From Stutzerimonas xanthomarina DSM 18231 (lineage in GTDB: Bacteria; Pseudomonadota; Gammaproteobacteria; Pseudomonadales; Pseudomonadaceae): a DNA stretch of 64,000 bases. The stretch's first letter is position 1. Every line of letters starts with the position of its first letter. The translations under genes and the position numbers were made by a program. Positions 9,290 to 64,000 of the stretch are shown in pieces. The stretch spans positions 186,001-250,000 of the forward strand of contig NZ_FQXA01000007.1 of assembly GCF_900129835.1 (NCBI RefSeq), written 5' to 3'. Under the pieces are notes generated by a model. The model was not told where the DNA came from, ran no database searches, and worked only from the letters and a program-made list of their open reading frames with translations.

Positions 9290-10558
9290 ATGACTGACCT
9301 GAAAACTGCCGCTCTCGACTACCATTCCCAGCCTCGTCCGGGAAAACTGAGCGTCGAGCTGACCAAGCCCACGTCCACTGCTCGCGATCTCTCGCTGGCC
9401 TACAGTCCTGGCGTGGCGGAGCCGGTCCGGGAGATCGCCCGAGATCCTGAACTGGCCTATCGATACACCGGCAAAGGCAATCTGGTCGCAGTGATTTCCG
9501 ACGGTACCGCCATTCTTGGTCTTGGAAACCTTGGGCCACTTGCATCCAAGCCGGTCATGGAAGGCAAGGGCGTGCTGTTCAAGCGATTCGCCGGGATCGA
9601 TGTATTCGATATCGAAGTCGATGCGGAGAGTCCTCAGGCCTTTATTGATACCGTCAAGCGTATCTCCATCACCTTTGGTGGGATCAATCTGGAAGATATC
9701 AAAGCCCCTGAGTGCTTCGAAATCGAGCGGACCTTGATCGAGCAATGCGACATCCCGGTGTTTCACGATGACCAGCATGGCACGGCCATCGTCACTGCAG
9801 CCGGTATGCTCAATGCATTGGAAATCGCCGGCAAGACGTTGGAGCAGGCCAAGATCGTCTGCCTCGGTGCCGGTGCCGCAGCAACGTCTTGCATGAAGTT
9901 GCTGGTTAGCATGGGTGCGAAAATCGAGAACATCTTCATGATCGATCGCAAGGGCGTTATCCATGCGGGTCGTGACGATCTGAATCAGTACAAGGCGGTT
10001 TTTGCACATGAGACGGACAAGCGCACCCTGGAAGATGCGCTAGATGGCGCCGACGTCTTCGTAGGTCTGTCGGGTGCCAATTTGCTGAGTGCCGAAGGCC
10101 TCAAGCGTATGGCGGCCAACCCGGTAGTATTTGCCTGCTCCAACCCTGACCCAGAGATCAGCCCCGAGCTCGCGCACGCGACCCGCTCCGATGTGATCAT
10201 GGCGACTGGTCGTTCGGACTACCCGAATCAGGTCAACAACGTGCTGGGCTTCCCATTCATCTTCCGCGGCGCGCTAGACGTTCGGGCCAAGCGCATCAAT
10301 GAGGAAATGAAGATAGCGGCCGCACTTGCGTTGCGTGAGCTTGCCAAGCTACCGGTGCCGGCCGAAGTGGCGGCTGCCTATGGCGTTGACAGCCTGGAGT
10401 TCGGTCGTGAGTACATCATTCCGAAGCCCATGGACCCGCGCCTGATTACGCTGGTTTCCGACGCGGTTGCCAAGGCTGCCATTGAAAGCGGTGTGGCGAC
10501 CCTGCCATATCCGTCGCACTACCCGCTAACCTCGGTCAGCGACGTATTTGGTGCCTGA
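9290..10558 (+). CDS. maeB: NADP-type malic enzyme, short form
   Basis: 422 residues from ATG 9290 ([19 protein letters not shown]). It converts malate to pyruvate and CO2 with NAD(P)H production. The malic N-terminal domain carries the family segment [18 protein letters not shown] and metal/substrate residues in [11 protein letters not shown]. The Rossmann domain has [11 protein letters not shown]. Unlike E. coli MaeB (about 759 residues) it lacks the C-terminal phosphotransacetylase-like domain; the 422-residue form is usual in Pseudomonas. It converges on ponA with a shared terminator at 10599-10627. Confidence 0.93.
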
Positions 10559-50961: not shown

Positions 50962-51888
50962 TCATAGCTTCATGCCAATGTGCGCTACGATCATTCGAGG
51001 ACCGGTAGGATCCAACCGGAAATGCAGCCTGCCCGCATAAGGTGTGAACCGGGCATGTTTATCAAAGCACCGCGTCTCACCGTCGAGGTCGGTAAAGTTA
51101 CACAGGCGTTGACGTTTTTGATGTTCACCAGTCACGCGGCTTCGCCACAGAGGCTCCGGTGATTCAGCGGGGTTCCACTCTGCCATCGCTTCCTGCAGCT
51201 CATCGAGCCGATTGCAGATAGCGCGCCACCAAGGATTGGTTGGCTCAATTGCTCTGAGCTGATCAAGCGCACCTTGGAGAAAGGCCAGATGAGGTAGTCG
51301 GGTGGTTCTATTGGCCTCGAAATCAGCAAAGTCCCGAAGAGAAAGCTTTCCTGCCGTGTCCAGCCAAGGGCGGTGCGAATTAACGTCATCAGATGTACAT
51401 GTGTTGCGCACGTCAATGCTTGTTGTTATCAGCTCCAAATGCCCCTCGGGCATTTGCACGACCTCAGTGCGTTCGACGCTAAGGAGGCGCTGCTGCCAGT
51501 GAGCACTGTTGAAACTAAGCGCGAAACCGTCGAATAGGTCGGCAAGCCCCAACGCTTCTGCGACTTGCTCGCCAAATTTGTATTCCAGGTCGCCATCAGA
51601 ATCGCGTGCCATCGGCAATCCATGTCGCAGCGGCGCGCGATTGACTGCAGCTAGTAGCGAGCGCGCGTCATCTTTGGTACGTGCTTCGCGCAAGAAGTCA
51701 CCAAACCCATAGTTTTCCCCAAATCGCCAACTCGAGATCGGATTTTGAGTTTGCATAGCGAAGTCTTGGCGCCAGCGACGTACCGTTTGGACTGATCTAG
51801 CAAGCTGGATGAGCTGTTCAATCACCAACTCACGTGGAGAGTCGTCCGTAGGTGTGGAAAGCTCATTTAAGAACCCTAGCAAGGACAT
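50962..51888 (-). CDS. Unknown third protein of a DUF262/ATPase defence-type operon
   Basis: 308 residues from ATG 51888, which overlaps the ATPase stop (TGATG); a GTG at 51897 would add three residues. No membrane helix or signal. Features: a helical N-terminal half (PRELVIEQLIQLARSVQTVR), a middle segment with SFNSAHWQQRLLSVERTEV, and a C-terminal His/Arg-rich block (CFDKHARFTPYAGRLHFRLD ending in MIVAHIGMKL) that looks like a small beta domain of the kind ending in -HIGxHL. I do not recognise a nuclease motif. It is translationally coupled to the ATPase, so it is part of that system, probably effector or sensor. Confidence 0.75.
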   Translation of the reverse strand: MSLLGFLNELSTPTDDSPRELVIEQLIQLARSVQTVRRWRQDFAMQTQNPISSWRFGENYGFGDFLREARTKDDARSLLAAVNRAPLRHGLPMARDSDGDLEYKFGEQVAEALGLADLFDGFALSFNSAHWQQRLLSVERTEVVQMPEGHLELITTSIDVRNTCTSDDVNSHRPWLDTAGKLSLRDFADFEANRTTRLPHLAFLQGALDQLRAIEPTNPWWRAICNRLDELQEAMAEWNPAESPEPLWRSRVTGEHQKRQRLCNFTDLDGETRCFDKHARFTPYAGRLHFRLDPTGPRMIVAHIGMKL

Positions 51889-52988
51889 CAGCTGCACAGA
51901 TCCATCAATGCGTTATCCCACTGGTCGAAGAAGCCCTCAGGCCAGAAGGACAGTCTTCCGTCAGGTTGTACGCTGGGGCTAACGAAAGTGCTTTGGCGAA
52001 GCGCTGGGTTTCGACTGAAGAAATGAATCTTCGCATTCGTATAATCAAGCTCACTGCGTTTTACCGCAAGCCGGACCCCATTTAGAAAATGATCGCTATG
52101 GGTTTCGACGATCACTTGAATTCCCGCTGACGCAGCTAGAGCCACGAGTCGGCCCATAGCCATCTGGCCACGAGGGTGGAGATGAGCTTCCGGGTTTTCG
52201 ATGAGAATAAGGCCGCCTACTGGCGTTGCTAGGCAGGAGATAACGATGGGCAAGCTATAGGCGAGGCCAAATCCCACGTTTGTGGAGCGATAGGCGTTTG
52301 ATTCGTTGACTCCCGAACCATATGTGAAGCTAAGACGAACATAGTCAGTTCCAACGACATCACGGACATCCAGGCGCACCCCGGGGCTGAACTCTTGCAT
52401 CCACGCATTCACTTGGCTCAGTAGGCCCGGTGTAGTTTCAGACGCTTCCGGGTATCGGATACTGACCGGCACCGGTTGGTCACGAAAAATAGCCAGAAAG
52501 TGGGCTGCGAACTCCCCTTTCGCCCCTAGAGACTTATTTTGGCTTACTGCATGGCGGGATTTGGCTGAAATTGTCTGAGGGTTGACCCTATCTGCACGAA
52601 GGAACTGAAAGCGGTCTGAGAAAGGGGTTAATGTCGATTCGCTTGCTTTAAAACTAGCATTGGGCTCTAGGACGTCGGCCTGCTGAGCGTATGCTACGGT
52701 CCAAGAAAAGCGGGCACCGTCTTGAATGAAGCCAATACTAATTTCTTCTGAGTCGCTGTCTTCGTGCAGCACATCGGATCCCGCTCCTAGCTCAACAAAA
52801 GGCCCATTTAGCAGCCAGCTTCCACTGCTCAAGAAGCCAGCGTCTATAGACTGTCGCAGGACCCCCAATGACTGTAGCACCGTGCTTTTCCCGGAGCTAT
52901 TTAGTCCCGTCAGCACTGTAAGCGGGGCAAGCGGGATTTCAGCAGACTTGAATCCTTTAAAGTTCTTCAGGGTCACTGCATCAATCAT
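51888..52988 (-). CDS. DUF3696-type ABC/OLD-like ATPase
   Basis: 366 residues. SMC/RecF-like ATPase: Walker A GLNSSGKST (28-36) after the FKGFKSAEIPL strand, signature-like STNVGFGLAYSLPIV (235-249), Walker B LILIENPEAHLHPRGQ (about 260-275) and a THSDH switch (about 296-300). The C-terminal FFDQWDNALMDLC resembles the DUF3696 tail. No Toprim nuclease follows, unlike OLD proteins. Flanked by an upstream DUF262 gene (8-base overlap) and the unknown gene, so it is the engine of a three-protein complex. Composition is a little more AT-rich than the core genes. Confidence 0.88.
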   Translation of the reverse strand: MIDAVTLKNFKGFKSAEIPLAPLTVLTGLNSSGKSTVLQSLGVLRQSIDAGFLSSGSWLLNGPFVELGAGSDVLHEDSDSEEISIGFIQDGARFSWTVAYAQQADVLEPNASFKASESTLTPFSDRFQFLRADRVNPQTISAKSRHAVSQNKSLGAKGEFAAHFLAIFRDQPVPVSIRYPEASETTPGLLSQVNAWMQEFSPGVRLDVRDVVGTDYVRLSFTYGSGVNESNAYRSTNVGFGLAYSLPIVISCLATPVGGLILIENPEAHLHPRGQMAMGRLVALAASAGIQVIVETHSDHFLNGVRLAVKRSELDYTNAKIHFFSRNPALRQSTFVSPSVQPDGRLSFWPEGFFDQWDNALMDLCS

Positions 52989-54171
52989 CCATCACGCTCC
53001 AGAATAATTTTTGAATCCTATCAAATCGGAGTCTTACTTTAGCCGGGTCACCTGTGCCTTGTGAAATCGCACGCTCGAACGCACGGTCAGCCATTAATTC
53101 AATGAACTGATCCTTCACTTGGTCGCTTCGCTCAACTAGCAGGTTCTGCTCATTGATCGACAACTCTGACAAGGTAACAGCCACTGCTTCGAATAGGGCT
53201 TTGTTTATTGGAAAGCGGCCATCATCTTTCCTGTACCGTTTACGGAACGCGTCGTCGCCAAAAATGTCGGCAGAAACTTCCATCGCTCTATCGAAGGCAT
53301 TCTTCTGCAGTAGAAGCTCTTTTTCGCTCCATGTGTTGACCTCACGCATGGCTTGTCCTAGGAAGCGGTCAAAATCTATAGGTCGGAAGTCGGTGGCCTT
53401 GGTCAGCCTGAAAGCAATGAACCGCAGAACCAGCTCTCGGTCGCTCATTCGGTCGTCGCTTATAGCGTAAGCGGTGGCTTGGAGGAAGCGCTCATCTTTG
53501 GCCCAGTCCCTCAAGAGTGTTCGGGCCTGGCCACCAATGAGGGCATGACGTAATTCCTGCGCGGATAGTGGAATACCTCCTGTGTTAATCCGAGCGAAGA
53601 TATTATGTTTCACTACCTCGGGGGTGCCATGACGGATCACGTGGACGACGATTTCAGTTTCCTCCAACCGTCGCATCATTTTGGGAGTGAGATCCTTGAA
53701 TATCTTCCCATCGAACTGCTGCCCTAGATACTCAAGGCCAATTAGCTTGAGTTGGCCATCGCCCACTGTGCTTGGCTCGATGAAGCGAGCAATGGCAGTT
53801 AGTCGTTGAATCCCATCCACAATCGACCAATTTTCTTCTTCGTCCTCTGCTGCGTAGAACGTCGGCAATGGTATTTTAAGTAAGATAGACTCGATTAGTC
53901 GGCTTTGGCGAATGTCAGTCCAGATACCTCGGCGACGCTGGAATTCCGGATCGAGATCAACCGCCTTATGGCGCAGTCGTGAGATCATTAGTCCGATCGT
54001 CATAGATCGAGTCTGAACCTCGATTTCGTCTGGATCGAACGGCTCGCCAATCTCGCCTAGAGAGCCCGTTTGGTCTTCTCGCTCAAGCTCAACGCCAGTA
54101 TTTTCGCCGAGTTGATTTCGTTCCTCGGAGATGGTTTGTGTATAAGCTTGGGGAGCTTCAGCGTTAGTCAT
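52981..54171 (-). CDS. DUF262 (GmrS/ParB-like) protein
   Basis: 396 residues, AGGA 6 bases before the ATG. DUF262 fold from about 50: FQRRRGIWTD (77-86), ILLKIPLPTFYAAED (96-110) and the ParB-like nucleotide motif IVDGIQRLTAIARF (117-130), then RINTGGIPLSAQELRHALIG. DUF262 proteins bind or hydrolyse nucleotides and often act in DNA-modification-dependent restriction or as sensors in defence modules. First gene of the triad with the DUF3696 ATPase and the unknown protein. An acidic unstructured N-terminus of about 50 residues is unusual but common in island copies. Confidence 0.88.
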   Translation of the reverse strand: MTNAEAPQAYTQTISEERNQLGENTGVELEREDQTGSLGEIGEPFDPDEIEVQTRSMTIGLMISRLRHKAVDLDPEFQRRRGIWTDIRQSRLIESILLKIPLPTFYAAEDEEENWSIVDGIQRLTAIARFIEPSTVGDGQLKLIGLEYLGQQFDGKIFKDLTPKMMRRLEETEIVVHVIRHGTPEVVKHNIFARINTGGIPLSAQELRHALIGGQARTLLRDWAKDERFLQATAYAISDDRMSDRELVLRFIAFRLTKATDFRPIDFDRFLGQAMREVNTWSEKELLLQKNAFDRAMEVSADIFGDDAFRKRYRKDDGRFPINKALFEAVAVTLSELSINEQNLLVERSDQVKDQFIELMADRAFERAISQGTGDPAKVRLRFDRIQKLFWSVMDD

Positions 54172-54375: not shown

Positions 54376-55146
54376 TCAAAGGCTCTGCATGGTTCGGCAC
54401 TTGGGAAACGCCGAGCACCCCCAAAACTGCAACCCCGCTTTCGCCCCTGACTTCACGGTGCGCATCAGTAGCGCGCTGCCGCATTTCGGGCATTGCCGCT
54501 CGGCTGTCGGATCGCTTCGGCGCTTAAGGTTTTGCACATGCTCGCGATGGGTGGCGAGTGTCGGCGCACGGCGGCCGGTTTGCAGGGCGTGCAGCATGGC
54601 TTCGACTTCTGCCGCGCTAAACACCGGCAGCTGAAATGACTGGATATAGCGGATAAAACCAATGCCCTGGGTCACGTTGGCCGGCACTTGGGTTTTGAAG
54701 GTGCTGCCGCCGACAAAGGTGACGACCGAGTGCAGGTGCTCGGGGTTAACGCCAAGTGTGGCCTCTAGGGCTTTGAGGTGCTTGTAGTTCTGCCGCAGCG
54801 GGTTCTGAAATTTGAAGGTGCGCTTGTAGAGCTTCTGCGTCCACAGCGGCTGTTTCTCGCTGCCAAAAATCCAGCCGCTCATGTTCTTCGTTTCCAGCAC
54901 GAAGATGCCGTAGGGCGAGAGGAATACGTGGTCGATTTGCGTGGTGCCGTCTGGCGTGTCCAGCGTGACATTGTGCAGACGGCGGTAGGTTTGTTTGTCC
55001 AGCTGCCAATGAGCGAACAGCCGTACCAGGAGTTCGCCAATGTGACCTTTGGCCCAGGGCGACTTGAGCAGGCCGATCAGCAGTGCAGCTGGGATGAACC
55101 AAGCCAACATGCCCCAGACCTGCGCGATGACGGGAGTGAAGTCCAT
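54376..55146 (-). CDS. NERD-domain protein with topoisomerase-type zinc finger
   Basis: 256 residues. N-terminal membrane helix (about 8-28), then a NERD nuclease-related domain: GHIGELLVRLF (34-44), TQIDHVFLSPYGIFVLETKN (about 69-88) with Asp72 and Glu85-Thr-Lys87 as the PD-(D/E)xK-like metal site. The C-terminus (about 217-256) is a four-cysteine topoisomerase-like zinc ribbon (CPKCGSALLMRTVKSG, then GCSAFPKC). It may bind or cut DNA near the membrane. It stands alone in the island, 204 bases beyond the triad start; a defence or DNA-processing role is inference. Confidence 0.85.
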   Translation of the reverse strand: MDFTPVIAQVWGMLAWFIPAALLIGLLKSPWAKGHIGELLVRLFAHWQLDKQTYRRLHNVTLDTPDGTTQIDHVFLSPYGIFVLETKNMSGWIFGSEKQPLWTQKLYKRTFKFQNPLRQNYKHLKALEATLGVNPEHLHSVVTFVGGSTFKTQVPANVTQGIGFIRYIQSFQLPVFSAAEVEAMLHALQTGRRAPTLATHREHVQNLKRRSDPTAERQCPKCGSALLMRTVKSGAKAGLQFWGCSAFPKCRTMQSL

Positions 55147-57605: not shown

Positions 57606-58415
57606 CTATTGAACGTAGCTCTGCGCGAAGGCTGCAATTTTCTGGGTGGCCTGATATTCGACCAGCTGCAATCCGCGGTCTAGGATGCACTCTTTGGCTA
57701 CCTGTACCGCCTTCCTGTGGCGCGCAGAATCATTCTCTGCCGGGGCCGCAACCGGGATCAGTACGTTCTTCAGCTCAATAATCCCTTCCTTCTCGGCGCG
57801 TGCGAATTTCATCAGCCATTGTTCGCAGTGATCGAGAATTGCGCTTGGCTCCGCTTGGTCAAAAGCCAAAGGCTTGATGGCGGCCACGACCTTGTTGCGG
57901 TGAACCAGAGGCAGATGCAGCTTGATCAGTTCACCAGTCAGCGTCTCATCCCGGAAGCTACGAATAGAGGCTTCCGTAAACAGGGTGCGAATTTCACGAA
58001 CCATGACTTCTTCACGACGATCACGAGCCATGCCTTGACGTTCGATATACCGACCAAAAAGCTCCTCAAGAGTGACATCAAAGTTTTCCACCAGGATTGA
58101 GCGCATGGGGCTGAAGCGAATCAGCGACTCCTTGGGCTCGGTCAGGAAGCGGAAGTGGTTAACAATTTGGCTTTCTTGTGCTTCTGCTGTCATCGCTCGC
58201 ACAGCATCCAGCTCGTTCTGGGCTATTTCCATGGCCTTGGCGAACAGGTTGTTGCATTCGAAGAAGCGATTGACCCGTTTTAGATTTTTACGGGCGAGCC
58301 TGTACTCCATGCGCCCAATGGCCGGGGCCGAGAGAACGATGCCGACATTGGCGAATTCTTCGGTTTCGGCAAAAGGCGCGAAGCGCACGATGCTGTAAAG
58401 ACAGGCGTATTTCAT
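57606..58415 (-). CDS. DUF3037 protein, partner of the HipA-like kinase
   Basis: 269 residues. DUF3037 signature near the N-terminus: YSIVRFAPFAETEEFANVGI. The remainder is helical with conserved charged segments (SLIRFSPMRSILVENFD, VAAIKPLAFDQAEPS). The protein is cytoplasmic. Its ATG overlaps the kinase stop by four bases (ATGA), so the two proteins are made together. The pair HipA_2-like kinase plus DUF3037 recurs widely, but I know of no proven function. Last gene of the operon beginning with the restriction-modification gene. Confidence 0.88.
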   Translation of the reverse strand: MKYACLYSIVRFAPFAETEEFANVGIVLSAPAIGRMEYRLARKNLKRVNRFFECNNLFAKAMEIAQNELDAVRAMTAEAQESQIVNHFRFLTEPKESLIRFSPMRSILVENFDVTLEELFGRYIERQGMARDRREEVMVREIRTLFTEASIRSFRDETLTGELIKLHLPLVHRNKVVAAIKPLAFDQAEPSAILDHCEQWLMKFARAEKEGIIELKNVLIPVAAPAENDSARHRKAVQVAKECILDRGLQLVEYQATQKIAAFAQSYVQ

Positions 58416-59155
58416 TGCAGGACGCTCCAGAATTCGTCCGAATTGCAGCGCATCAGGTTACTTTCGATTTCTTCGAGCAGAATGTCGAGTCCCTGTTTGC
58501 CTATAGATTCACACCATTCATCAGGTATGTCTGAGCATAGGTCACGAAAGCGCTTGGCAGTGTCGTGCATCCGCTGGCTGTATTCAACTTTGTCGACCAT
58601 ATCCATGCGCCATAGCCGATTGCTTGGGCCAAACACATGGCTTTGGGCGAAGTCCTGTACATCCTGAGGCCACTGGAATGCCTGGTTGTGGTCAATCAGT
58701 TGCAGCTGATTGTCTGTGCCGCACATCAGCAAATTGGGGCGACCGCCAAAAGGGCCTAGCTGACGATCACCATTACCAACCCAGTAATCAAAGGTGAAAA
58801 CGGCTTTTTGCAGGTCGACAGGAACCTGCAGTGCTTGCGAATAGAGCAGGTCCGCAGCGTCCGCGACATAAGCCAAGGCGAAGCTGTCACCAGGCCCCAG
58901 GTCGCTGCGTGCTTCTTTGTCGTAGCGCAGTAGGCCGGGGTCAATATAGATATAGCCGTGCTCGGGGATTGGCAACCCGAAGTCAGAGGCCAGGCGGGCG
59001 CACAGCAGCTCGGCAATACGTTCGGCGGGCGGGAGTTCCAAACCCTTTGCCACATAGTGTTTGCCGTTGCTGGCTCTGCATAGGAAGGGGCGCGTCATAC
59101 CGCCCTCCAGCCGCCGGATGATCTCCACCGCTTCTATGTAGTTACCCTTGGCCAT
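58412..59155 (-). CDS. HipA_2-like kinase
   Basis: 247 residues. Protein-kinase-like HipA fold: ATP-lysine candidate Lys37 in HYVAKGLELPP, the catalytic loop FDYWVGNGDRQLGPFGGRP (Asp130, Arg131), NLLMC, and the metal-binding LQLIDHNQAF (Asp155). It lacks the HipA N-terminal domain and HipB partner. AAGGAAG stands before the ATG, 18 bases behind the methyltransferase stop, and the ATGA overlap couples it to DUF3037. It may phosphorylate its RM partner or a host target; this is inference. Confidence 0.85.
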   Translation of the reverse strand: MAKGNYIEAVEIIRRLEGGMTRPFLCRASNGKHYVAKGLELPPAERIAELLCARLASDFGLPIPEHGYIYIDPGLLRYDKEARSDLGPGDSFALAYVADAADLLYSQALQVPVDLQKAVFTFDYWVGNGDRQLGPFGGRPNLLMCGTDNQLQLIDHNQAFQWPQDVQDFAQSHVFGPSNRLWRMDMVDKVEYSQRMHDTAKRFRDLCSDIPDEWCESIGKQGLDILLEEIESNLMRCNSDEFWSVLQ

Positions 59156-59173
59156 TGACGACTTCCTTATGCA

Positions 59174-62100
59174 TCAGCCGGCCAGACGATACTGATCTGC
59201 GTCCTGCTGCACCATGCCCAGTTCTTCAAGGGCATCCAAAACGGCCTGAACGGCGACCTTGGGTGAGCGTTTGAAGTGTGCGGCAAGGGCGTCGGCAGGT
59301 AGCGGGCTTTGGCTGAGTGCATGGCGCACGGCAGCTACCTGTTCGCGCATTTGCTTGGGCCAGGTGAGTTTGCCGGTGGCGGCTGCGGCGGCAGGGATGG
59401 ATTCGAAATCCGTTGTGTTGTCTAACACCGCTTCGCTTTGATCCGGCACGACGGTGGCGCTCGGGTTCTGATACTCGGGGCGCAGCCAGCGGATGTGGCC
59501 GCGGGCTTCTTCTGCGGTTCGCTCGATATTCAACGCCACCAGGCGGGACAGCAATTCTTCTTCGGCTTCGGCCTGCGCCTCGGGTTTGTCCGGCAGCGGC
59601 GTGGTAGCGCCAGGCTTGCCCACCAGTTGTTCGGCCAAATCATCCCAGCCATAGGCGGCGAAGACGGCGCTATCCAGCTCGTCGTGCAGTTCGCGCAGCA
59701 GGGAAACCAGGCCTTGTTCGTGGATGGTCTTGTCTTTGGCGTTCAGAGGCTCGCCGGCTCGCAGCTTTTCCAGCACGTTGTACATGCCGGTTAGGGTCAG
59801 CTCGGGGTACTGTGCTTGCTGGCGTTTGCGATGGGCGTCTAGGCGTTCGGCGAGTTCGCGGATGTGTACCTGTTGTTCTGGCAAGGCATCCGGGAAGGGA
59901 AATGTCTCAAAACAACGGGTTTTGTTATAGCGAGGGTCATTGCCGACACCGAGCCGGCCACCAGCTGCCAACGCCCAAACGACATGCACACGACTGGATA
60001 GGATGCCGAGATTTACAGCATCGTCGCTGGCAATATTGATCAGCATGTTATCGGGCAGTATTTCTGGACTCAGGAACTGAAAAGTTCGGTGTTTTGTTGT
60101 CTCTACGGTGGCGATATAGCGAGGCAGGTTCGCCAGCTGTTTGCGTAGCTCTTGGCGAGGTTTGCCAAAGAGCCACCAAAGGGCAGCGTATCCTGCGCCA
60201 TCTTTGGTGCCTCCCTTGCTGTCCCTCTCTGGCTTTACTCGCTCCAACAAGTGTTGATAAACAGCCGGATATTGCTCGCGAACCTGGTCGGCAGTGAGCC
60301 CGAAGAGGTCGATAACCATGACCCCTCGCGGTGACTGCGCAAGATCACGCCCATTGCGATAGGCGCGAATGTGATTTTCAATATTAGGCACAGTGCCGAG
60401 CCCCATTTTGACAGCATTGTCGGGGGTGACAATAAAGCCTGATCCATGCAGTTTGACGCCCGGCGAGCTAAGGCCAAGGCAAGCAAGCAATGGGTTTGCC
60501 CCAGAGACATTTGCCCCGGTTTTGAGGTCGGCAAATAGTAGCCCTTGCTGTTCTTGCAGATTGACCTCTATTTCGTCCTGATTCTGTTCGCTACTGAACT
60601 CGTCACGTACTTGTAGCAAGCGGCCATTACTTGGATTGGCCGAGCCTACTGTCATGGCAATTCGCACCTGCGCGCCATCTCCGGCATCCACCCAAGGATG
60701 GTCCGGTATGGCGAAGGCCAGTGACAATGGATTCTTCGCGTCCAGCTGCGCCTGTACCACGCGCCTGTTAAAAGTCTGCTTGATGCTGTTGGTGGTGATA
60801 AAGCCAAAGCGCTGCACTTGGCCTGCACGCACGGCCTCAGCGGATATGTGCCACCAGTGCATGACAAAGTCCGCTGATTCCGGCACCTCAGGCCAGGTGC
60901 TGCGTACAGCATCGACATAGCCATCGCCCAAGGCACGACGCATGGTTGATGCGCCAATGAACGGCGGATTGCCCACTATGTAATCCGCCTGCGGCCACCC
61001 TGCCTTGCGTGGATTGCGATAGATGTACTGCTCGACCTGCGACGACTCATCCGGCACTTGTTCGCCGGTAATCGGGCTGGTCTTGGTGGTAATGCCATCC
61101 CAGCGAGTAATGGGTTTTCCGGTTTCATCGCGCAGCAGTTCCACGGCATCGTAGGCAATAAGTGCATCGCGGTGCTCGATATTGTGGAAGTCACGTAGCA
61201 CAGGCTCGGGCGGGTTGACCTTTCCGTGGGTGCGGAAATGCCATTGCAGGTAACCGATCCACAACACCATTTCGGCGATACGGGCGGCGCGTGGGTTGAT
61301 CTCCAGACCAAGGAACTGGTGTGGGTCGACAGTGAGGCCTTCGGTGTCCAGCATGCCGGTTTGGCCCAAGTCCCCTAGCAGGTTGAGCACTTCGCCTTCG
61401 AGGCGCTTCATGTGCTCCAGAGTGACATAAAGGAAGTTACCGCTGCCGCATGCCGGGTCGAGTACACGCACATCGCACAAGTGGCGCTGGAAGGCTTTTA
61501 CTTCTTCAACGGCTTCCTTGTGCTTGCCCAGGCTTTCGTAAGTCAGCGCGGCGGCCTGGACCTCTTTCCACTCGGCGCGCAGCGGCTCGATAACGGTGGG
61601 CAGTACCAGGCGTTCAACATAGGCGCGCGGGGTGTAATGCGCGCCCAGCTTATGACGTTCGCGAGGATTTAACGCACGTTCCAGCAAGGTGCCGAAGATG
61701 GCCGGCTCCACATAACGCCAGTCGGCCTCGGAGGCCTTTAGTAGCAGTTCCATTTGATCGCGGTCGAGGGCGATGGCTGACGCCTCGGCGAATAGGCCGC
61801 CATTGAACTTGAGCAGCGTGCTTTCCAGGATCGGCGAGAAGCCGCCGCTGTTCATGGTTTGCCAGAGGTGTTCAAGCATCGGCGCGAAAGTGTCGGGCTT
61901 GTTCTTCAGGCGCTGCAGAAGCTCAGTAAAACCGCGTTCGGGCAGCAGGCCAACGTCCTCGGCAAACATGGTGAACAGGGCACGCATCAGGAAGCTGGAA
62001 ACCAAATGCGGAGAGTGACCAGCGGCCTCCAGGGACTTCGCCAGTTTGGCCAGTTGGTCGGCAATTTCGCGGGTGACTTTGGCGGATCGTCGGGCCGGGT

Positions 62101-62638
62101 CAAGGCTGAGTGGATCAAGCCATACGGCGCTCAGGCGCTCGCGCACGTCTTCTTTGCGCAGATCTTCCAGGCGGATGCGGTGGCTACGTGAATCCGGGTA
62201 GGGCGTGTAGGTGGCACCGGAGCGGCTGAACTCGGCATACAGCTCGATGTTGCGGCCAACATCCACGACCAGGATGAACGGCGGGCGACCTTCTTCGGCG
62301 GGGAGGGCGCGGGCGTACTGGTCGGCTTGGTTGTGGGCCTTGAGCATGGCCTTGTCCCAGCCGGAGCTGTCCAGGGTCTTGCCGGTTTGCTTGGCCTCCA
62401 GCACGAAGCTGCCGCGCTTGTAGAGGTCAATAAAACCATTGTTGCTGCTGCCGTCAGGCTGGTTGATGACTACGCGGCGCTCAAACACATAGGCGTTGTC
62501 GCGGGTTTCGTCGCCGGCAGGCTCTGGCAGCGGTAGCCCAAGCAGGCTGCATAGCTCGGTGAGGAACAACTGGTAGTTGGCGCGCTCAGTACCGCCAGCC
62601 TTCTGCCAGCGGGCCAGGAAGTTGTCCAAGTGTTCCAT
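59174..62638 (-). CDS. Fused restriction nuclease / DNA methyltransferase (type IIG-like)
   Basis: 1154 residues from ATG 62638; an in-frame GTG at 62641 with GGAG 7 bases upstream is equally possible. N-terminal PD-(D/E)xK-type nuclease: NNGFIDLYKRGSFVLEAKQT gives Asp71 and Glu81-Ala-Lys83. Class I N6-adenine methyltransferase core: AdoMet motif LDPACGSGNFLY (about 394-403) and catalytic VGNPPFIGAS (NPPF, about 558-561). A target-recognition region follows, and the C-terminal 100 residues are winged-helix-like. Size and layout fit type IIG/L enzymes; DISARM DrmMI-like methyltransferases are an alternative, but no drmA/drmB partners are seen. It is the first gene of the operon with a HipA-like kinase and DUF3037. 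Confidence 0.85.
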   Translation of the reverse strand: MEHLDNFLARWQKAGGTERANYQLFLTELCSLLGLPLPEPAGDETRDNAYVFERRVVINQPDGSSNNGFIDLYKRGSFVLEAKQTGKTLDSSGWDKAMLKAHNQADQYARALPAEEGRPPFILVVDVGRNIELYAEFSRSGATYTPYPDSRSHRIRLEDLRKEDVRERLSAVWLDPLSLDPARRSAKVTREIADQLAKLAKSLEAAGHSPHLVSSFLMRALFTMFAEDVGLLPERGFTELLQRLKNKPDTFAPMLEHLWQTMNSGGFSPILESTLLKFNGGLFAEASAIALDRDQMELLLKASEADWRYVEPAIFGTLLERALNPRERHKLGAHYTPRAYVERLVLPTVIEPLRAEWKEVQAAALTYESLGKHKEAVEEVKAFQRHLCDVRVLDPACGSGNFLYVTLEHMKRLEGEVLNLLGDLGQTGMLDTEGLTVDPHQFLGLEINPRAARIAEMVLWIGYLQWHFRTHGKVNPPEPVLRDFHNIEHRDALIAYDAVELLRDETGKPITRWDGITTKTSPITGEQVPDESSQVEQYIYRNPRKAGWPQADYIVGNPPFIGASTMRRALGDGYVDAVRSTWPEVPESADFVMHWWHISAEAVRAGQVQRFGFITTNSIKQTFNRRVVQAQLDAKNPLSLAFAIPDHPWVDAGDGAQVRIAMTVGSANPSNGRLLQVRDEFSSEQNQDEIEVNLQEQQGLLFADLKTGANVSGANPLLACLGLSSPGVKLHGSGFIVTPDNAVKMGLGTVPNIENHIRAYRNGRDLAQSPRGVMVIDLFGLTADQVREQYPAVYQHLLERVKPERDSKGGTKDGAGYAALWWLFGKPRQELRKQLANLPRYIATVETTKHRTFQFLSPEILPDNMLINIASDDAVNLGILSSRVHVVWALAAGGRLGVGNDPRYNKTRCFETFPFPDALPEQQVHIRELAERLDAHRKRQQAQYPELTLTGMYNVLEKLRAGEPLNAKDKTIHEQGLVSLLRELHDELDSAVFAAYGWDDLAEQLVGKPGATTPLPDKPEAQAEAEEELLSRLVALNIERTAEEARGHIRWLRPEYQNPSATVVPDQSEAVLDNTTDFESIPAAAAATGKLTWPKQMREQVAAVRHALSQSPLPADALAAHFKRSPKVAVQAVLDALEELGMVQQDADQYRLAG

Positions 62639-62736: not shown

Positions 62737-63615
62737 TCAGGTTCGCTTATTCAGTTGCTGTAGGCGGTTAAGAATTTCCTCGCGAGCTCGTGGAAAGTAG
62801 ATCCAGTTTCTGTACTTAGGGTTGTACTCGCCGCCTAGCTCGTTACGCCAAGATTTCAGGAGCTCAGTTATCTGAGGGTTATATGCCAGCGAGCGGACGG
62901 CCACAGAGCCTGTAGGCAGGATTCTGGCTGATAGCCACATATCCATGACCGTGAATCGGTGCTCGATGCATTTTGCTGCGGGCTCGGTTACCGGTGGTTT
63001 GAGAAGAGCGGGTAGCGAAGCTGCTACTGGCAGAGCACCCACTGGTAGCGCCTCGGGGTATACCCACGATTTGTTGTGGGTCTGCATCAGGATGTGAGCC
63101 TTGACCTCTTCGGAGGGGATGGGGTGCTTGCTGAATAGCAGTTCGCTGAGATCAATTTCGACCGTGTTGGTACCGGCGTCTTTAATCCGCTCCAGCTTTT
63201 CCTCGCCAATAAACGAGGTGACGGCGACCTCAATGAATAGCTGTCCGCCGTCTTTCAGGTGGGCGACCAGGTCGGGTTGGAACCCTTGCTGCGGGACTTC
63301 TTCATCCACTCTTTCGAAGTCCCACCAGCTGGTTTTGTCCTCGCTCTCCGGCCAGATCCCAGGCATCGGCGGAAGCTGCAAGCCGAGCTGGTTGCGGATG
63401 ACTTCTTTGGCGTATAGGTGCAGCAGGCTTTCTCGCTGGATGAAGCAGCTTTCCTTGTTGGAATGATGGGAGAAGTGATGTTCACGAATCAGGCCCTTTC
63501 GAGCGACTACCGGTTCGCCGCAGCAAGCGCAGGTGCAATTGCAGGCAAGCCCACGCATGGCGTTTTCGATAGTTATCAGTTGGCCGTATGAATCGAGTGC
63601 AACGAACATGCTCAT
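62737..63615 (-). CDS. CoiA-like protein
   Basis: 292 residues from ATG 63615 (MSMFVALDSYGQLITIENA); MFVAL at 63609 is an alternative start. The N-terminal cluster ACNCTCACCGEPVVARKG and a histidine group (REHHFSHHS) look like a zinc site. The middle segment FQPDLVAHLKDGGQLFIEVA (Asp115, Glu129) resembles a PD-(D/E)xK nuclease core as in CoiA competence proteins. The C-terminal part (KSWRNELGGEYNPKYRNWIY) is basic and probably binds DNA. It is upstream of the RM gene on the same strand with about 98 bases between, so perhaps a separate unit. Confidence 0.75.
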   Translation of the reverse strand: MSMFVALDSYGQLITIENAMRGLACNCTCACCGEPVVARKGLIREHHFSHHSNKESCFIQRESLLHLYAKEVIRNQLGLQLPPMPGIWPESEDKTSWWDFERVDEEVPQQGFQPDLVAHLKDGGQLFIEVAVTSFIGEEKLERIKDAGTNTVEIDLSELLFSKHPIPSEEVKAHILMQTHNKSWVYPEALPVGALPVAASLPALLKPPVTEPAAKCIEHRFTVMDMWLSARILPTGSVAVRSLAYNPQITELLKSWRNELGGEYNPKYRNWIYFPRAREEILNRLQQLNKRT

Positions 63616-63767
63616 GGGCAAAGCCTCTGGTGTCAGGACGGCTTCTAGAGTCATGATTCGAGCGGGGCCAAACATCCCCCCAACCTCATGCAAAGAGGTT
63701 GTGCGAACGTATGGAATACGCTTCAGCCCGCTAATTGCGGGCCTTTGGAGATTATGTGCTGGATGTG

Positions 63768-64000
63768 ATGCGCTGTTTACAAGCCGAGCTGAATGACGTT
63801 CCAGCAGACAATAAGGCGTACCGGGTTCTTCAGTTTTTGGTGCAAGCCAAGCTCGACGAGCTAGGTAAGAACGTTCGCGAACCCCAGCAGTACACCCGCA
63901 CCGCTTTGCTGTTGCATGTCGAGGGGGAGCGAAAGGGCAGGACATTGAACGCAACGACATGGCTACCACCAGGCTTGCTGGAAAGGTTTCTCTTGTCGCG
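63768..64000 (+). CDS. Unknown protein, 5' part only
   Basis: Reading frame open from ATG 63768 to the edge of the window (77 codons): MRCLQAELNDVPADNKAYRV, then LQFLVQAKLDELGKNVREPQ, and a basic run later. It is divergent from the CoiA-like gene with 150 bases between. A four-residue frame (MCWM) starting at 63754 ends in TGATG on this start, with GGAG before it, which could couple translation or be chance. No family recognised. Weakly supported because it is partial. Confidence 0.4.
   Translation, partial: MRCLQAELNDVPADNKAYRVLQFLVQAKLDELGKNVREPQQYTRTALLLHVEGERKGRTLNATTWLPPGLLERFLLS

Follow-up and report, generated by a model that had tools for sequence, protein, structure and literature searches.

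What is a HipA-like kinase doing at the 3' end of a restriction-modification (RM) operon? The question is raised by a locus in the window, the whole 64,000-nucleotide stretch of Stutzerimonas xanthomarina DSM 18231 that was analysed, in which an MmeI-like type IIG RM gene is followed by genes for a HipA_2 kinase and a DUF3037 protein. We lean towards reading the locus as a two-layer defence operon of two separable modules, in which the RM enzyme acts first and the kinase/DUF3037 pair, a HipAD system, acts second, once restriction has been evaded. Judging from its family and motifs, the MmeI-like enzyme would methylate adenine in the host target sites and cut unmodified DNA. By analogy with tested relatives, the kinase would be a toxin restrained by its DUF3037 partner, HipD; infection may free the kinase, which would then phosphorylate a host or phage target and stop growth or phage production, and the pair would in this way arrest cells where a phage gets past restriction. 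A second-line, abortive response had been proposed for the pair in the preliminary description of this DNA, made from its letters, and we regard it as a plausible role.

The geometry of the operon (Table 1) agreed with that description. The three co-directional genes, the 18-base gap, and the 4-base overlap (ATGA, between the kinase and DUF3037 genes) were confirmed from the open reading frames of the minus strand, and the ribosome site before the kinase and the terminator at the end were recovered as AAGGAAG and as a terminator-like hairpin. In the RM gene, an alternative GTG start is also open one codon before the ATG. The terminator scan showed no terminator-like site in the gap between the RM and kinase genes; overall it found 5 sites against a mean of 7.0 in shuffles, which is no excess, so the hairpin is credible by its position alone. 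In Stutzerimonas stutzeri 4C29, the complete 5.1 kb operon was collinear at 86% DNA identity, which argues that the three-gene arrangement is not due to chance. From the gene geometry, the pair appears to be co-transcribed with the RM gene and translated from the 3' end of its transcript, so that both modules would be expressed and moved together; they are probably co-expressed yet separable.

Table 1. Features of the RM-HipAD operon, in window coordinates.
Feature	Position	Strand	Details
Type IIG RM gene, MmeI-like	62638..59174	minus	ATG start, 1154 aa
RM-kinase gap	59156-59173	minus	18 bases, Shine-Dalgarno AAGGAAG 6 bases before kinase ATG
HipA_2 kinase gene (HipA toxin of HipAD, PDC-M66A)	59155..58412	minus	247 aa
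DUF3037 gene (HipD antitoxin of HipAD, PDC-M66B)	58415..57606	minus	269 aa
Intrinsic-terminator-like hairpin	57579-57557	minus	9 pairs, 7 GC, T-rich tail, 3' of last gene

The RM protein contained the Pfam domains MmeI_N, MmeI_hel, MmeI_Mtase, and MmeI_TRD and matched the PADLOC type IIG model PDLC03627 over nearly the whole chain (1552.7 bits), and the initial call of a type IIG restriction/methyltransferase was thus right. As in MmeI-like type IIG enzymes, a single chain carries a PD-(D/E)XK nuclease motif (D71-x9-E81-x-K83), an N6-adenine-type methyltransferase with motif I DPACGSG (394) and motif IV NPPF (557), and a target recognition domain (TRD). These active-site residues are intact: all 81 aligned homologues had the E, the K, and the NPP of motif IV, 80/81 had the D, and in the alignment with the MmeI structure 5hr4 (E 1.2e-42) the nuclease D-x9-E-x-K was in register in both chains. 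On these features, the protein should be an active, self-contained enzyme. Domain order, D-x9-E-x-K, and NPPF are shared with the MmeI-like enzymes, whereas the window enzyme exceeds the 919-residue MmeI chain by about 235 residues and has two linked downstream genes.

Two other defence systems were considered and rejected. The RM protein also matched the PADLOC DISARM DrmMI models, but the best score (252.4 bits) was far below that of the type IIG model, and other DISARM genes topped no PADLOC list (best 25 families each) of the ten proteins scanned. The preliminary description had drawn an analogy with kinase-containing BREX/Pgl systems, which holds insofar as a kinase and an adenine methyltransferase adjoin in one neighbourhood, as in Pgl, and no further: PglX models among the best 25 of 36 PADLOC families scored below 28 bits, NCBIfam PglX models reached 14-23 bits, far below the cut-off, and no BREX/Pgl core partner gene was present among the ten proteins scanned (50.9-64 kb of the window).

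The kinase was assigned by Pfam to HipA_2 (E 5.7e-80) and matched PADLOC PDC-M66A, while its neighbour was assigned to DUF3037 (E 5.4e-22) and matched PDC-M66B (E 3.5e-17). With a HipA_2 kinase whose catalytic residues are intact and a DUF3037 gene immediately downstream, the pair is, on sequence grounds, the already described HipAD, that is DS-6 or PADLOC PDC-M66. The PDC names reportedly go back to the Payne 2024 preprint on embedded defences. The kinase and DUF3037 genes had been correctly recognised as a recurring pair, while the remark that no described system has this gene set is outdated as far as the pair is concerned. Kinase residues G19, K37, E49, N128, D130, N141, and D155 were invariant in 23 aligned sequences, the window included. 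The predicted structure of the kinase (pLDDT 90.8) was matched by Foldseek to CtkA (E 7.2e-6), HipT (1.8e-4), HipA (3.2e-4), and other kinases too; a sequence search of the PDB gave a single chance-level match (E 0.24). A homologous pair in the record of Escherichia phage PhiR5_1 is annotated as HipA toxin/HipD antitoxin.

The DUF3037 protein was predicted with a pTM of 0.54, and Foldseek gave no match for the model at E <= 0.001. The rows obtained with VIA-align covered mainly residues 128-269, and many near the top were nucleases presumably of the PD-(D/E)XK fold (PspGI with Z 8.7, rmsd 2.9, and 126 aligned; BsoBI, BstEII, Can2, and Mus81/XPF), mixed with unrelated folds; similarity at this level may reflect a common arrangement only. 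No conserved D...(D/E)xK set was seen in the DUF3037 alignment.

What the pair may do is suggested by its relatives. In the passages of PMC13092281 that deal with DS-6, the system is renamed HipAD and mutation of the kinase active site abolishes defence. For the Retron-Sda1 operon, the text of PMC12548924 reports that deletion of the kinase abolishes defence, that deletion of DUF3037 is toxic, and that the retron parts are dispensable; passages of both papers describe HipAD as protecting E. coli on its own. The window pair shares with HipAD/DS-6/PDC-M66 both proteins, their order, the 4-base overlap, and the kinase residues. It differs in its setting, since DS-6 is a two-gene system and another tested pair is retron-linked, whereas the window pair makes up the 3' portion of an RM operon. 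As in the window, HipAD in Retron-Sda1 is a stand-alone effector pair attached to a different defence system, the host system being a retron there and RM here.

The pattern of gene loss fits a toxin and an antitoxin. DUF3037 was intact and the kinase broken or absent in 6 of 36 loci (L017, L018, L022, L138, L145, and L148, with L138 and L148 borderline at 85% coverage), while the reverse was seen in one (L139); in L137 both genes were broken, and L021 was cut by a contig end. A caveat on this asymmetry is that DUF3037 was the main route by which the 36 loci were found. In an order sample of 293 genomes, the 9 strong matches to HipA_2 (216 bits or more) all adjoined DUF3037, another 9 below 40 bits being set aside, and 1 of 10 DUF3037 genes had no kinase.

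Is the association with RM genes peculiar to this operon? DUF3037 was found in 39 genomes, 25 of which were counted as HipAD-type; the remainder (G301, G437, G475, G488, G532, G848, G864, G945, G949, G952, G943, G689, G700, and G754) were dropped for a short or divergent DUF3037. Ignoring RM methyltransferase matches below 50 bits, such a gene lay within 10 kb in 8 of the 25 genomes (7/24 without the window; 8/39 on the wider set), where 0.34-0.35 would be expected from gene number and genome sizes (Poisson 3.6e-9 at an expectation of 0.34). The upper figure results from adding two N6_Mtase rows above 50 bits, G266:C74:13717 and G994:C53:70907, neither of them near HipAD. A sample of 30 genomes from the class of G662 gave 1 positive, already in the set. 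In a control with classical HipA_C, 2 of the 90 matches listed, which came from 40 genomes chosen among 80 positive ones, were near RM against 1.16 expected (Fisher 6.1e-5 versus HipAD).

By Pfam, PADLOC, and seed matches, the RM systems at the eight linked loci belong to two type IIG clades (the window and L013, whose enzyme groups with Thioalkalivibrio enzymes at about 75%) and to six type I loci (L011, L012, L018, L019, L135, and L147). HipAD was co-directional and downstream of the RM gene in 6/8. The junction is a 4-base overlap in L012 and, assuming a GTG start for the kinase, one of 10 bases in L135; in L019, HipAD follows the second piece of a split hsdR at a distance of about 70 bases, and in L013 and L147 one small gene lies between the RM gene and HipAD. 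These intervening genes encode 266 aa (L013, 10281-11081) and 301 aa (L147, 9968-10873); neither had a PADLOC match, and the latter had no Pfam family. At L011 the pair lies inside the type I locus on the opposite strand, and at L018 DUF3037 alone remains, on the opposite strand beside hsdR. The RM-linked loci fall on separate, scattered branches of the HipAD tree, and the link therefore most likely arose several times. Near the loci without RM, six proteins matched no PADLOC model at 1e-5. A separate observation was made at L133 (G315), where an N6_Mtase fragment (36.6 bits, near 9885-10022) about 1 kb downstream of DUF3037 is possibly an RM remnant.

Several results weigh against the two-layer reading. 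No RM methyltransferase was present within 10 kb of 17/25 HipAD loci, the stretches of L136, L137, and L149 being shortened by contig ends, and the RM seeds matched nothing in the 14 dropped loci (stretches of 11.9-18 kb). In the same 64 genomes as HipAD, other defence genes lay near RM at 10 kb about as often, namely 8/55 for AbiEii (Fisher 0.21 versus HipAD 7/24) and 8/40 for GmrSD (Fisher 0.54). In addition, the identity of the window pair to the annotated PhiR5_1 HipAD is low, 35% for the kinase and 33% for DUF3037. The AbiEii figure uses 55 of 68 rows, leaving out one second piece and 12 rows below 50 bits, one of which (G047) is 4 kb from an RM gene; the GmrSD figure uses 40 of 48, leaving out 8 within 2 kb of another, 4 of them within 10 kb of RM, and would be 12/48 with all rows kept. 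At a distance of 5 kb, HipAD (5/24, leaving out the window) exceeded AbiEii (2/55, P 0.024), while the difference from GmrSD (4/40) was not significant (P 0.28). The idea that the pair adjoins RM genes more often than by chance, on which the preliminary description had staked its proposal, is thus borne out against random placement, and mere chance neighbourhood is ruled out in that sense; although far more frequent than random placement predicts, the link was not shown to rise above the defence-island background, the excess over other island genes at 10 kb not being significant.

These controls bear directly on the possibility that the two modules are defence-island neighbours or co-mobile passengers, with the operon incidental to island shuffling and without joint function. 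We hold this to be unlikely, although the AbiEii and GmrSD counts speak for it, as do the NsnABC defence genes within 12 kb in the window and the fact that the modules dissociate. Against it, unrelated RM loci repeatedly show tight junctions (the 18-base gap, the overlaps of 4 and 10 bases), and relatives with RM proteins down to 80% identity have a similar junction, which suits one old unit, separate gains being possible.

The history of the window operon was followed through the relatives of its RM enzyme, of which the best 80 were kept from a search of genome contigs. The pair, or part of it, lay directly downstream in three: a Stutzerimonas stutzeri relative (RM 87%) with both genes, a gammaproteobacterial metagenome-assembled genome (MAG; RM 80%) with the kinase and with homology that reaches into the start of DUF3037 before the contig ends, and Atopomonas sediminilitoris (L022; RM 83%) with DUF3037 only. 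Between the RM gene and the intact DUF3037 gene of Atopomonas (L022, 13444-13470), there is no kinase gene; separately, the middle of the Atopomonas RM gene, the TRD region, had no DNA alignment with the window although the flanks were 86-88% identical, which suggests a changed target specificity. At least 1 kb downstream was visible for 66 of the 80 relatives, with no pair in the fetched stretch, and 11 ended less than 1 kb after the RM gene and could not be judged. The RM tree, (MAG, ((Perlucidibaca, P. fluvialis), (Atopomonas, (Stutzerimonas, window)))), had support of 1.0, 0.979, and 0.991 on its three main nodes and 0.46 on the Stutzerimonas-window node; one old gain with later loss and more than one gain both fit this topology. 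In P. fluvialis, the slot of HipAD holds a SoFic-family gene (L023, 13522-14640; PDLC03963, E 1.5e-120), 80 bases after the RM gene.

Separation of the modules was seen in both directions. Pairs without RM on plasmids of Pseudomonas syringae, P. amygdali, and MPC6 were 84.6-89.6% identical to the window pair. On the MPC6 plasmid (L161, 8088-8260), the DNA match continued directly upstream of HipAD 150 bases into the 3' end of the RM gene (window 59324), and tblastn recovered residues 1101-1150 at 56% identity (E 7e-7); by this alignment, the remnant is the scar of a lost RM gene. Conversely, the RM gene is present without the pair on a plasmid of P. fulva (protein identity 85.7%), where an IS1182 transposase lies about 100 bases downstream. 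Either module can therefore outlive the other, and an obligate three-gene system is ruled out by the independent losses. Judging from the relatives that lack the pair, the RM enzyme is likely to be fully functional without it.

These losses, together with the close relationship of the RM-free pairs, argue against obligate coupling and against control of the enzyme by the kinase. Such control had been suggested at the outset: the kinase would phosphorylate the RM enzyme and set the balance between restriction and modification. Linkage is the one observation in its favour, whereas 66/80 close relatives of the enzyme are visibly without the kinase, the P. fulva RM gene stands alone, and the pair works and occurs without RM. 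In addition, the targets of HipA and HipT named in PMC13092281 and PMC6581861 are tRNA synthetases, glutamyl-tRNA synthetase in the case of E. coli HipA (PMC13092281), and the portions of the literature examined state no target for HipA_2. The proposal is therefore unsupported, and we give it almost no credence. Hardly more probable is an addiction role without any defence, in which the pair would stabilise the RM gene against loss. Toxin-antitoxin pairs can stabilise linked DNA, and several relatives of the window operon carry both RM and pair; however, MPC6 lost RM and kept the pair, and P. fulva has RM without it.

A closer competitor of the two-layer reading is that HipAD acts as a guard of RM, in the manner of PrrC: silenced by the RM system or monitoring it, with the kinase released when an anti-restriction protein blocks the enzyme or methylation falls. 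In its broader form, HipAD would be a general second-line effector repeatedly and independently recruited to type IIG and type I RM operons, usually at the 3' end, where anti-restriction proteins or loss of RM would free the kinase and shut down the cell. There is precedent in the part of PMC12707154 concerned with PrrC in EcoprrI and with PARIS, which are termed RM guardian systems; PrrC is described there as a tRNA nuclease that sits within a type IC locus and becomes active upon inhibition of the type IC enzyme. The effector gene is physically linked to RM in the window and at 7 loci among the 24 other HipAD genomes, beside two type IIG clades and type I loci and mostly co-directional and downstream, and a SoFic-family toxin gene holds the same slot in the sister type IIG locus. 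With EcoprrI-PrrC and PARIS, the operon shares a growth-arrest effector associated with restriction and hypothetically acting as a second line after anti-restriction, whereas the window effector is a kinase with its own partner protein and is also found without RM. We nevertheless consider a guard doubtful in either form. HipAD defends alone in E. coli, according to the passages of PMC12548924 and PMC13092281 mentioned above, most of the counted genomes (17/25) have no RM methyltransferase near it, and a pair silenced by RM only would be expected to become toxic once RM is lost. The high identity of the RM-free plasmid pairs is against obligate silencing, and with pairs so alike no RM-specific part of the pair proteins is evident.

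The operon is made of known parts throughout; in the literature covered, no account was found of HipAD attached repeatedly to RM loci of type IIG and type I. HipA is mentioned 12 times in PMC3874152, a review on RM and toxin-antitoxin systems. No RM-HipAD link was described in the titles and opening lines of abstracts among the papers listed, although Payne 2024 and Brenes and Laub 2025 (cited for the name HipAD) may hold one. The main text of PMC12548924 contains no word starting with "restriction", and in PMC13092281 restriction comes up in four passages, none of them about DS-6. A recently validated defence module that stands beside classical restriction enzymes more than once provides natural constructs for asking whether the two are wired together or merely stacked. 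If HipAD guards RM, a kinase-based guard would join PrrC and PARIS; if it does not, the locus would be a clear case of defence modules that travel together without mutual dependence.

The surroundings of the operon in the window contain further genes of note. A three-gene operon at 50962-54171 (minus strand) matched PADLOC NsnC, NsnB, and NsnA (E 1.6e-85, 7.6e-115, and 8.5e-137); this second defence system of the island has a NERD-domain gene as its neighbour (54376-55146). Upstream of the RM gene, a 410-aa protein (62737-63969, minus strand) showed weak N-terminal CoiA_N and DruB-like matches, the Pfam ones below the cut-offs. Farther away, at about 32-46 kb on the minus strand, genes for ketoacyl synthases, an MMPL-like protein, an aromatic amino acid lyase, and AMP-binding/ApeI proteins form a cluster that resembles an aryl polyene cluster.

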